From contig CALGMO010000039.1 in the NCBI GenBank assembly GCA_937961665.1, positions 1 through 45,944 on the forward strand: a stretch of DNA of 45,944 nt, written 5' to 3'. Position numbers and translations under genes: made by a program. Source of the DNA: an uncultured Fimbriimonadaceae bacterium (GTDB lineage Bacteria; Armatimonadota; Fimbriimonadia; Fimbriimonadales; Fimbriimonadaceae). A model generated the notes under the pieces. It saw nothing but the letters and a program-made list of their open reading frames with translations. It made no database searches and had not been told where the DNA came from. This document shows, piece after piece, positions 8,816 to 12,717 of this stretch; the stretch's first letter is position 1, and each line of letters starts with the position of its first letter.

Positions 8816-10102
8816 TCAGAACTTGGCGTCGCTGGCCTGCTGGAACCGCTCCTCGCGCAGGCGGGCCCGCTCCAGAAGCGCGGCCGCCTTGGAGATCGCC
8901 ACGTCCGGCTCGCCGAACCTCGGGGGCGGCACCTCGAGCGTCGGCCGCACTCCCGTTCCCTCCAGGCGCACGCCCTCCATCGTGACGTAGTCCGAGATCG
9001 GGTACTGCAGCTGGAACCCGCCCGGGAGCATCGCCATCACGCTCACCAGAACCGCACCCGCCGAGGGCGTGCCGACGACCGGCGCCTCGAGCTGCTCCTG
9101 CAGGGCCGCCGCCACGATCTCCGACGCGCTTCCGCTCCGGCGGTCCACCAGCACGGCGACCTTGCCGGCGAACGGCTTGCGGTCGGTGCGCGCGGGCTTG
9201 ACCTTGCTGTCCGACCACCGGGCGATGGCTCGGAGGTCCGTCGGGTCGCCCTGGGTCTCTTTGACGAACCTCTCCACCATGGACCGGCTCACGAACGTTC
9301 CGACGGGCGTGTTCTGGGGCAGGAACTGGGCCAGCAGGTGCATGAAGTTCGCCACGGCCCCTCCGCCGTTGCCGCGCAGGTCCAGGATCAGCTGCTTGGC
9401 GTCCTTGGCCTCGTCGATCATGCGCTCGATGGCCTGACGGTCGTAGCCGCGGTCGAACGTGTGCACCTTCAGCACGACGGTCTCGCCGTCGATCCAGGTG
9501 AGCTTGTCGGGCAGCAGCGTGCTGAACGCGCGCCGCACCAGAGAGACCTCCGCCGTCTTGCCATCGTGCTTGCGCAGCTTCAGGCGGATCTCGGCGCCCT
9601 CGTCGCCGGAAAGCTGGGAGAGCTCGGTGGCCGGCTTGCCGTCCACCTCCAAGATCACGTCGCCCAGCTGGATGCCCGCCTCGGCGGCCGGGCTCTGTGG
9701 GAACAGGTTGATCACCCTCATCCCCTCGGATTCGCGTTGCAGACCGACGCCGATGCCGATCGCCTTGCGCTCGCGGCGCGCCTGGGCCGCCTTGGGCGTG
9801 GCCAGAACGATGTGGCTGATTCCCAGACGGCGGAGGCTCCGGTTCACCGCTTGGGCGAACGCCGCCTCATCCTTGGCCTCCTCGATCGCCTGCGACTCCG
9901 AGGCCACGATCTCGGGCCACTTGCCGAAGTCCACTCCCGGCACGTAGGCGTTCTTCGAGAGGATCTCGCCGATCCGCTGGAGCACCGCCTTCTTGGTCTC
10001 GGGGCCGAACGGCTCGGCCGAGGGGCGGCCCTGCGCGGACGCGGGTTGAGCCAGCGCGAGCGACGCGACGAGGGCGAGGCACGTTGCGACGGAACGGAGC
10101 AT
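8816..10102 (-). CDS. S41-family (tail-specific protease-like) peptidase, secreted
   Basis: A 428-residue protein with a signal peptide (residues 1-23, cleavage after ASA), an N-terminal helical part, a PDZ domain (about 115-190) and an S41 catalytic domain. Ser325 in GSASEIVAAAL is the nucleophile position. The Lys that follows 25 residues later in CtpA/Tsp enzymes is Ala here. Instead His97 (GISHIV) and Glu381 (EGTGVRP) sit where the tricorn-type subgroup keeps His and Glu, so a Ser/His/Glu site is likelier than a Ser/Lys dyad. TATCCT (10111-10116) lies 8 nt before the ATG. It probably acts outside the cytoplasmic membrane on unknown substrates. Confidence 0.88.
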   Translation of the reverse strand: MLRSVATCLALVASLALAQPASAQGRPSAEPFGPETKKAVLQRIGEILSKNAYVPGVDFGKWPEIVASESQAIEEAKDEAAFAQAVNRSLRRLGISHIVLATPKAAQARRERKAIGIGVGLQRESEGMRVINLFPQSPAAEAGIQLGDVILEVDGKPATELSQLSGDEGAEIRLKLRKHDGKTAEVSLVRRAFSTLLPDKLTWIDGETVVLKVHTFDRGYDRQAIERMIDEAKDAKQLILDLRGNGGGAVANFMHLLAQFLPQNTPVGTFVSRSMVERFVKETQGDPTDLRAIARWSDSKVKPARTDRKPFAGKVAVLVDRRSGSASEIVAAALQEQLEAPVVGTPSAGAVLVSVMAMLPGGFQLQYPISDYVTMEGVRLEGTGVRPTLEVPPPRFGEPDVAISKAAALLERARLREERFQQASDAKF

Positions 10103-10148: not shown

Positions 10149-10457
10149 CTACTCCGGGCTGACCTCGACCCGGATGCCGATCGTGGCGATGATCGAAGCC
10201 GCCCGCTCGCACTCCGCCCTGTCGCCGTGGTGCACCACGGACTTGCCGAGGTTGTGAATCTCCCAGGTCTCGATCTGGGCCTCCCGCATGGAGCAGCCGG
10301 TGGCCACGATCAGGATCGCGATCACCTCTTCGAAGGTGTTGTGGTCGTTGTCGAAGACGGTGACGATCCAGCGGTCTCCCGACCCTTGCCCGGTGTCGGC
10401 GTGCTCTTCCAGCGAGGGGTGGACGGTCGACGCCGTGGCGAGGATCACTCCTCCCAT
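10149..10457 (-). CDS. ClpS-like N-degron adaptor, second tandem copy
   Basis: A 102-residue protein matching the ClpS core: RWIVTVFDNDHNTFEEVI, ATGCSMREAQ, WEIHNLGKSVVHHGDRAECE and IGIRVEVSPE. ClpS adaptors bind proteins with destabilising N-terminal residues and hand them to ClpA/ClpC-ClpP. The E. coli N34-D35-D36 pocket reads D36-N37-D38 here, and the H66 equivalent is His68, so the pocket is altered but not lost. Start choice is open: ATG 10457, or a GTG at 10448 that overlaps the upstream stop as GTGA. About 25 extra N-terminal residues precede the fold. It is a paralogue of the adjacent upstream gene. Confidence 0.8.
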   Translation of the reverse strand: MGGVILATASTVHPSLEEHADTGQGSGDRWIVTVFDNDHNTFEEVIAILIVATGCSMREAQIETWEIHNLGKSVVHHGDRAECERAASIIATIGIRVEVSPE

Positions 10458-10732
10458 TCCGGGCGGACCGTGGTGCGCACGCCGATCATCGCGATCATCG
10501 CGGCCACGATCTCGCACTCGTGGCGATCCGCGAAGTGGACCGGCGCCTTGCCGTACGTGTGGGCCTCCCAAGTCTCGAAGAACGCCTCCTCGGTCCCGCA
10601 GCCCGTGGCCCGCATCAGCGCCTCGATGACCTCGTCGAAGGTGTTCGTGTCGTTGTTGTGGATCTCGACCATCCATCGCCCCGTCACCAAACCTTTCTCG
10701 ATGATCTCGGGAGCGACCCAAGCGCGCGACAT
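10445..10732 (-). CDS. ClpS-like N-degron adaptor, first tandem copy
   Basis: A 95-residue protein with the ClpS fold signature: RWMVEIHNNDTNTFDEVIEAL, RATGCGTEEAFFETWEAHTYGKAPVH, and a final strand IGVRTTVRPEW. Pocket positions matching E. coli N34-D35-D36 read N26-N27-D28, and His58 matches H66. It shares the order and spacing of all motifs with the gene just downstream, which it overlaps by 13 bp, so a local duplication is likely. A strong Shine-Dalgarno (GAGGAGG) and a TAAAAT -10 (10757-10762) precede its ATG, making it the first gene of the transcript. No clpA or clpC is in the window. Confidence 0.82.
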   Translation of the reverse strand: MSRAWVAPEIIEKGLVTGRWMVEIHNNDTNTFDEVIEALMRATGCGTEEAFFETWEAHTYGKAPVHFADRHECEIVAAMIAMIGVRTTVRPEWEE

Positions 10733-10803
10733 CGTCGGAGCACCTCCTCGTGAACCATTTTACGCCGATCCGCCGAAGGGCTGGGCCGGTATCCTGATGC
10801 GGC

Positions 10804-12717
10804 ATGGTGTTCGGTAAGCGCATCGTCCCGTATTGCATCCTTCTTGCGACGGCGCTGATACCGGTCGCCCGTGCCCTCTTCTCCGCGGAAGCGGTCGGCG
10901 CGTTCGACCAGATCCGAGCGATGGCCCCATGGAACGGCCCCGAGCCGAAGCAGGCGTGGGACGTGCTCCAGGCGGATTCGGTTCTGCAGTTCTTCGTGTG
11001 GCGCAAGCTGGCGATCGAGGAGGGCCTGACCGAGACGAACCCCTACACCTTCGGCGGCTCGCCTCTGGCGGCCAACTCGCAATCGGCGGTCTGGTATCCG
11101 CCCCACGTGATCCTGCGGTGGCTGCGCGTTCGCGCCGACGACGCGATTGACCTGCTGGCTTGGTTCCACCTGTTCGTGCTCGGTGCGGGGGTGTTCGCGC
11201 TCTGCCGGAAGGCCGGCGCCGGGACGGCGCCCTCGGTGGCCTCGGCCATCGCCGTTCAGCTTTCGCCGTTCGCCTTGGGATGGCTCGCCTTGGCCAGCGT
11301 GCCCACGACGATCGCCTGGATCCCTTGGCTGTGCCTGGCGGTCTGGTCCGGGGTGGCGGGAAGCCGTTGGGGCTGGCTGTGGCTGGCGGCGTCGGGGGCG
11401 ATGCTGCTGACGGCCGGGCACCTGCAGTTCGCCGCCTACGGCGTTTTCGCGGCCTTCGCCGTCGCCGCGGGAGCGGCCGTGCGGCGCCTCCGATCGGGCG
11501 AGAGGCCTTGGCTCGGCCTGGCCTCGGTGGGAGTGGGCGGCGCCGCGGCGGTTGCCCTGGCCTGGGTCCACTTGGGGCCGGTGCTGGCGCTCTCGGCCGA
11601 GTCGCACCGACGCAACAGCCCGACCGAGGAGGGTTACGCGGCGTACGTGGGAGGCGCGATCCGGCCGCACGAGCTGGTCGGCAGGCTGGCCGGGCCGTTC
11701 GCCCACGGCAACCCTCTCGTCTCGCCGGAGTCGCTGCCGACGGAGTACCTGCCGGCGATCACCAGGCCCGGGGCGAACTACGCCGAGTCTGCGGCCACCG
11801 TCGGCCCGCTTCTGCTGGTGGGCGCCCTGGCCGCGCTCTTCGGTCCGGCCACGCGGAAGGCCGCCTTCTGGTGGGGGCTGGCGGCCTTCGCGGCACTGCT
11901 GGCGGCGGGCACCCCGCTCAACCGCCTGCTCTACTTCGGTCTGCCCGGTTGGTCCGCCAGCGGCTCGCCCGGCAGGGTGATCGTTCTCCTCGTGCTGGCG
12001 CTCGCTGTGGCGGCGGCCTTGGGTCTGACGCCGACGCAGGAGCAACCGGCCAAGACCGACCGCTGGAAGGTCGCCGCGCTCGCCCTTGCGTTCGGAATCA
12101 TGGCTGCGGGTGTGGCGTGGGGCGAGGAGCCCTACCCCCCGGGACTGCCCGATAGCCACCCGGCGGAGGTCGTTTGGATGGAGGTGTTCACGCGGAACGC
12201 GACGATGGTGGGTCTGTGGGGCTTCGCCGCGCTGGCCCTGGTCCCGATCGTCTGGGAGCGTCCGAGAGCCGCCTGGGCCCTGGCGGCCTACGCCGCCGCC
12301 TTTCCGATTCTGACGGGGGTGACCGCGCTCGTTCGCACCGGGGACCCCTCGTTCCTGAGGGAGAGGATCGAGGGCGTCGGTCCGGGCGACCTGGTGGCGA
12401 TCGTGAACGAGCACTGGACGTTCGTCGGCAGGCCCAGGGCGCTGATGCCGCCCAACACGGCGGCCGCCTCGGGCATCCGCGAGCTGGGCGGATACGACTC
12501 GCTGATGCGCCGCGACGTCAAGGCCCGGCTGGACGAGATCAACGGCCAGGATTCGAGCCCGCCCGCCAACGGCAACATCGCCTTCGTCAAGCCGACCGCC
12601 GACCCGGCCAAGCTCAAGGCCGCGGGGGTCACGCAGGTCTGGAGCCTGCGCGAGCTGCCCCGGGCGTTCGGCCCGGGCCAGAGGCACCCCCGCGGCTTCT
12701 GGGTGTACCGCCTTTAG
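10804..12717 (+). CDS. YfhO-like polytopic membrane protein
   Basis: A 637-residue membrane protein with many hydrophobic helices. The first large loop holds AMAPWNGP and YTFGGSPLAANSQ, then SAVWYPP, the layout of YfhO-type proteins, which resemble GT-C glycosyltransferases and are implicated in sugar transfer to cell-envelope polymers. A second conserved stretch is TAGHLQFAAYG. The C-terminal roughly 110 residues are a soluble domain ending in GFWVYRL. Donor and acceptor are unknown. It is divergent from the ClpS-like genes. TATCCT (10790-10795) lies 8 nt before the ATG with no Shine-Dalgarno. It ends 6 bp from the convergent E1 gene. Confidence 0.72.
   Translation: MVFGKRIVPYCILLATALIPVARALFSAEAVGAFDQIRAMAPWNGPEPKQAWDVLQADSVLQFFVWRKLAIEEGLTETNPYTFGGSPLAANSQSAVWYPPHVILRWLRVRADDAIDLLAWFHLFVLGAGVFALCRKAGAGTAPSVASAIAVQLSPFALGWLALASVPTTIAWIPWLCLAVWSGVAGSRWGWLWLAASGAMLLTAGHLQFAAYGVFAAFAVAAGAAVRRLRSGERPWLGLASVGVGGAAAVALAWVHLGPVLALSAESHRRNSPTEEGYAAYVGGAIRPHELVGRLAGPFAHGNPLVSPESLPTEYLPAITRPGANYAESAATVGPLLLVGALAALFGPATRKAAFWWGLAAFAALLAAGTPLNRLLYFGLPGWSASGSPGRVIVLLVLALAVAAALGLTPTQEQPAKTDRWKVAALALAFGIMAAGVAWGEEPYPPGLPDSHPAEVVWMEVFTRNATMVGLWGFAALALVPIVWERPRAAWALAAYAAAFPILTGVTALVRTGDPSFLRERIEGVGPGDLVAIVNEHWTFVGRPRALMPPNTAAASGIRELGGYDSLMRRDVKARLDEINGQDSSPPANGNIAFVKPTADPAKLKAAGVTQVWSLRELPRAFGPGQRHPRGFWVYRL

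Follow-up and report, generated by a model that had tools for sequence, protein, structure and literature searches.

The window, by which we mean the whole stretch of 45,944 nucleotides that was analysed, carries on its minus strand two overlapping genes, ClpS A and ClpS B, flanked by a membrane protein gene and a protease gene. The features are listed below, with the residues of both ClpS copies numbered as in E. coli ClpS here and throughout.

10804-12717, plus strand: YfhO-like membrane protein of 637 aa, divergent from ClpS A
10741-10749, minus strand: ribosome-binding-site-like GAGGAGGTG, 5' of the ClpS A ATG, read from the sequence
10445-10732, minus strand: ClpS A, the upstream copy, 95 aa, with N34 N35 D36, A65 H66 and a C-terminal EWEE
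10445-10457, minus strand: overlap of the ClpS A 3' end and the ClpS B start, candidate translational coupling
10149-10457, minus strand: ClpS B, the downstream copy, 102 aa from an ATG at 10457, or starting from a GTG at 10448, with D34 N35 D36, I65 H66
8816-10102, minus strand: S41 protease with a PDZ domain (Pfam S41, 5.7e-32), adjoining ClpS B

Depending on the start codon chosen for ClpS B, the two genes overlap by 4 or 13 bases. Indeed, the candidate starts lie at -4 and -13 counted from the end of the ClpS A stop codon, and the GTG start gives a GTGA overlap with this stop. An overlapping layout is also found in most of the relatives' pair loci. The EW at the end of ClpS A was considered as a by-product of the ClpS B start codon, which was dismissed given that EW is also retained where ClpS B starts far downstream (loci L066, L085 and L095).

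The original prediction of two overlapping genes, each with a complete ClpS domain, was confirmed by Pfam matches and AlphaFold models. On the Pfam ClpS family (PF02617, curated cut-off of 23 bits) ClpS A scores 38 bits (E 1.4e-9) and ClpS B 42.1 bits (E 7.8e-11), and the best scores on the NCBIfam ClpS equivalog models are 20.6 and 25.8 bits, below the curated cut-offs of 107 and 86. The AlphaFold (AF2) models, built from alignments of 51 rows for A and 64 rows for B, both display a pLDDT of 89. When superposed on ClpS, both were ClpS-like with a Z of about 15, and the Foldseek probability for the ClpS core fold is 1.00. With the best ClpS crystal structures, 75-78 residues superpose at 1.0-1.7 Å, and Z ranges from 12 to 16 over the crystals of Mycolicibacterium smegmatis ClpS, plant ClpS1, Caulobacter ClpS and E. 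coli ClpS; the A model reaches 15.8 to plant ClpS1 (7d34), and the B model 15.2 to the same structure and 15.1 to M. smegmatis ClpS. The latter (9ayo, 9b1p) is the best Foldseek match of both models. The fold of E. coli and Caulobacter ClpS (2wa8, 3dnj) is the same (Z 13-14.5, 1.0-1.2 Å over 75-76 aa), although their identity to A and B is 14-21%.

Caulobacter ClpS uses N47, D49 and H79 to bind the alpha-amino group, and D48, M53 and V78 are among the residues lining its specificity pocket (PMC12493166). These sites correspond in E. coli numbering to the ligands N34, D36 and H66 and to the lining residues D35, M40 and V65. Hence the N-D-D trio, which had been taken as the pocket signature, is not the alpha-amine site but two ligands plus D35, which only lines the pocket, and ClpS A with its N-N-D and His is ordinary at the alpha-amine site. 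Indeed, N34, D36 and H66 are all present in the window's ClpS A.

Pocket residues were counted over 78 A and 77 B sequences. Among the A sequences the ligands are retained in 73/78 (N34), 69/78 (D/E36) and 68/78 (H66), and position 35 is Asn in 67/78. ClpS B has N35 in all 77 copies and D/E36 in 71, with Asn (45/77) or Asp (32/77) at position 34 and Asp (59/77) or His (18/77) at position 66. An Asp at 34 or 66 is present in 75 of the 77 B copies, and the N34/H66 combination, usual in ClpS A and classical ClpS, in only two. The window's ClpS B, with D34 and H66, is of a minority type among the B copies; the claim that the His is kept in both paralogues holds for the window's own A and B but not for most B copies. 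Position 65 is Ala in 76/78 A compared to Ile/Val in 77/77 B, and position 40 is Phe, Met, Tyr, Ile or Val in A, whereas Tyr predominates in B. The pockets are paralogue-specific, as anticipated, A and B differing consistently at 34/66, 65 and 40. Compared with E. coli and Caulobacter ClpS, the three ligands are the same in ClpS A, whereas both copies have Asn for D35, mostly Thr/Ala for M62 and Trp63-Glu64 for Leu-Ala, and have lost K84; this ClpA contact of E. coli is replaced by Val/Ala in almost every A and B sequence.

Positions 34 and 66 of ClpS B evolve together, with Asp at one or the other. Fisher's test on the two sites gives 2e-8 with kinship ignored, and an independent-pairs test found too few supported pairs; likelihood models were therefore used, comparing independent and dependent change (Pagel-type) on a tree of 100 B-type sequences from which columns 34 and 66 were excluded. 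Dependence is favoured with an LR of 25.7 (p 4e-5, an exact value that is not to be leaned on since the B tree, of fewer than 80 columns and weak support, is poorly resolved) and an LR of 24.2 on a second tree. None of 60 simulations under independence reaches 25.7, the largest being 12.8, and N34/H66 is observed in 3 of the 100 B-type sequences compared to a simulated mean of 15.

Each of the B solutions has a precedent, Asp34/His66 in M. smegmatis ClpS and Asp66/Tyr40 in Leptospira ClpS1 and UBR1/UBR2. M. smegmatis ClpS shares Asp34 and His66 with the window's B but has D35-P36 instead of N35-D36 and about 18-26% identity; given that it has been solved with Phe-Ala and Trp-Ser, N34D need not abolish binding. 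Leptospira interrogans also has two ClpS per genome with differing pockets (PMC12493166), and its ClpS1 resembles most B copies in the changes His to Asp and Met to Tyr and in a Val at the K84 position. However, the two Leptospira genes are not arranged as a tandem, the one for ClpS2 being next to clpA, and the proteins share 17% identity.

UBR1 and UBR2 (9wbw, 9wbv) are the best PDB sequence matches of the A (1e-7) and B (3e-7) profiles, ahead of bacterial ClpS. Their ClpS-like domain, which recognises type-2 N-degrons, has Asp66 and Tyr40 like most B copies but retains N34-D35-E36 and falls outside the A/B clade. The structure of yeast Ubr1 is further off (Z 10-11 compared to up to 15 for bacterial ClpS), and UBR1 and UBR2 are large UBR-box E3 ligases whereas A and B are stand-alone proteins of about 95-102 aa. 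Descent from UBR was dismissed, since N-D-D ClpS of the same phylum matches both E. coli ClpS and UBR, and UBR lies outside A/B. The sequence resemblance is thus read as likeness, not kinship, and the ClpS B pocket with Asp66 and Tyr40 offers a useful comparison for these ligases.

The lasting pocket differences between A and B suggest that the two proteins sort different protein ends. Alternatively, A and B could be redundant or dose-setting, both recognising the same classical N-degrons with pocket differences that are neutral or compensatory. The three classical ligands retained in ClpS A and the precedents in ClpS or UBR domains for every B solution would fit such redundancy, but the differences at 34/66, at 65 (Ala versus Ile/Val) and at 40 are consistent over dozens of genera, and chthonomonad-type genomes have B without a tandem A, which shows that the two are separable; we consider redundancy improbable. 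The preference of E. coli ClpS at P2-P5 is influenced by two negatively charged residues next to the pocket, D36 and E41 (PMC12258705), and B has an additional acid in this region. A and B might then differ mainly from substrate position 2 onward rather than at residue 1 and may act on the ClpC ring as a mixture of both, a reading to which we give very little weight.

The A-B pair was followed through a phylum sample of 291 Armatimonadota genomes. Its named relatives belong to the Armatimonadota, chiefly Fimbriimonadales/Fimbriimonadaceae and Chthonomonadales. Among the families f1, f3 and f5, which are tied to NCBI names through shared contigs alone, at least two ClpS matches are found in 75 of the 85 sampled f1 genomes, in 8/8 f5 genomes listed and in the f3 genome, and the pairs are in tandem wherever coordinates were inspected. 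Family f2 genomes have one mostly classical N-D-D ClpS or none, and those of chthonomonad type encode B, either by itself or with a more distant ClpS elsewhere. The tandem duplication is hence real, the A-B pair being conserved across dozens of genera. A recent local duplication or assembly artefact was dismissed, as about 80 genomes share the A-B order and the identity between A and B is 55% over 74 aa. A phage origin was dismissed as well, ClpS B having no protein match in 50,697 phage records.

In an 80-column tree of A, B, single-copy, N-D-D ClpS and UBR sequences, the ClpS A sequences together with an unlinked A-like gene of genome G115 and two singles form one clade (support 100/92), and A, B and the B-like singles form a clade separate from classical N-D-D ClpS (support 100/99). 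The duplication is therefore older than the spread of these families and, judged from these sequences, is ancient and maintained. Within the genus, amino-acid change is far below synonymous change for both copies, with a dN/dS of 0.02-0.05 for A and 0.09-0.19 for B. By these signs A and B are maintained genes under purifying selection, and a pseudogene reading was dismissed because dN/dS is well below 1.

Several genomes depart from this pattern. Two reduced genomes of 1.5 Mb from the same family, G030 (L063) and G048 (L096), retain just one ClpS, which is A-like and has WETH, and aat was not detected in either. The f2 genome G073 (L006) has, unlike its relatives, a proteobacterial-type ClpS (109.6 bits) and aat, possibly through horizontal transfer. 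A third, divergent ClpS-like gene (L080, G060:C5:477398-477589) occurs beside an A-B pair in the same genome.

The window's assembly is 2.88 Mb long and 95% complete. A search of it for a third, canonical clpS returned none above the Pfam cut-off, and a canonical gene hidden elsewhere in the genome was dismissed, the best other match being sub-threshold (12.5 bits, contig C128). The sole Clp_N protein found in this genome is an 853-aa ATPase on contig C89, assigned to the ClpC type on the basis of its short middle domain and its sequence as a whole; clpA was not found. In keeping with the original remark that the pair lies far from clpA or clpC as far as visible, clpC is on another contig. Two large Clp_N proteins are encoded in the complete genomes of relatives, and their lengths point to ClpC and ClpB as the most likely identities. 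The window's genome also encodes ClpP and the leucyl/phenylalanyl-tRNA-protein transferase Aat, so that with ClpC, ClpP and Aat the gene set for the ordinary Leu/Phe N-degron pathway is nominally complete. Aat is present in 64 of 72 pair genomes, compared to 0/10 f2 genomes whose only ClpS is of the N-D-D type, an association that follows family lines and hence is not independent evidence; four of the eight pair genomes in which it was undetected are less than 80% complete. A Bpt/ATE transferase was dismissed as a part, since only one of 121 genomes has it.

In light of these results, we propose with a probability of about 0.6 that A and B are N-degron adaptors which serve ClpC-ClpP, split substrate recognition between them and stand in for a single classical ClpS in the Fimbriimonadales. 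Each adaptor would capture proteins that expose particular N-terminal residues and pass them to ClpC-ClpP, and Aat would enlarge the substrate pool by adding Leu/Phe onto Arg/Lys N-termini. ClpS A would recognise the alpha-amino group as classical ClpS does, through N34, D/E36 and H66, with Ala65 in the pocket wall. In ClpS B, this recognition would involve an additional acid at 34 or 66, along with Ile/Val65 and mostly Tyr40, on account of which B should accept different N-terminal residues, probably smaller or differently flanked ones. The gene overlap would hold the levels of A and B in step. The fold, the paralogy, the conservation, the purifying selection, the joint change of sites 34 and 66 and the presence of ClpC, ClpP and Aat are shown by the data, and from there we infer binding to ClpC, N-degron binding, the division of specificity and translational coupling. 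A caution against the ClpC-adaptor reading is that the ClpA-binding residues of E. coli are not conserved in A and B (K84 is lost), which is softened by the fact that Leptospira ClpS1, with Val at this position, still binds ClpA (PMC12493166).

The closest parallel for divided specificity is found in Synechococcus, whose ClpS1 prefers F/Y/W and ClpS2 L/F/Y/V/I in vitro (PMC7966870). These are likewise paralogous ClpC adaptors with differing N-terminal residue preference, measured in Synechococcus and predicted for A and B from sequence and models. By this analogy A and B probably share out N-terminal residues as Synechococcus ClpS1 and ClpS2 do. The pair is a conserved variant of ClpS organisation that is of N-degron interest and not a new type of system. 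No description of the paired A/B organisation was found among the open-access papers searched, and no dedicated study of Armatimonadota ClpS among titles and abstracts. ClpS pockets serve to understand and engineer N-terminal residue recognition, in degron control and protein sequencing reagents; the A/B pairs represent a natural variant set for finding specificity-setting residues and make a bacterial N-degron division of labour directly testable.

The neighbouring genes were compared over 57 related loci. The S41 protease gene does adjoin ClpS B in the window, as first pointed out, but this position is not conserved. Only 12/57 loci have a relative of it close to the pair, for which reason it was dismissed as a functional partner; its presence is incidental. 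The 637-aa membrane protein has no Pfam match and we take it to be YfhO-like from general resemblance. In most relatives its gene is on the same strand, directly upstream of ClpS A. Within about 5 kb of the pair, the YfhO-like gene is found in 45/57 loci, a small TPR gene in 24/57 and the single-copy ftsH in 25/57, and many Fimbriimonadales loci display the order ftsH - small TPR - YfhO-like - A - B on one strand. Such an arrangement could stem either from long-retained synteny or from a functional connection to FtsH.

One of the two copies, with B the likelier candidate, could be something other than a plain N-recognin, namely a regulator such as an anti-adaptor or heterodimer partner of A, or an adaptor of another AAA+ protease, e.g. 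FtsH. The recurrent same-strand YfhO-like and ftsH genes near the pair and the N34/H66 combination missing from B speak for this. However, ftsH-TPR lies on another contig (C110) in the window's genome and far from the pair in G009 and G055, chthonomonad B genes lack such neighbours, the synteny may reflect plain vertical inheritance, and the titles and abstracts of the papers listed mention no delivery to FtsH by ClpS; we regard this alternative as unlikely. Returning to two adaptors with divided specificity, a broader, order-wide form can be put forward only tentatively and is itself rather doubtful. In this two-recognin system B would need one acid at either site and would prefer N-ends outside those of classical ClpS (e.g. 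small or beta-branched residues, or free Met), A would cover the classical residues, and both may link to membrane protein turnover through the ftsH cluster.

Some variation of the cluster was also observed. The ftsH-TPR-YfhO-like-A-B order is displayed by loci among L041-L095, and locus L062 (G029) has an ftsH-TPR-YfhO-like cluster with B only, A being undetected. In the genus of the window's genome the YfhO-like gene is inverted, and ftsH-TPR is found behind a tilS-like gene (L213), on a separate contig.
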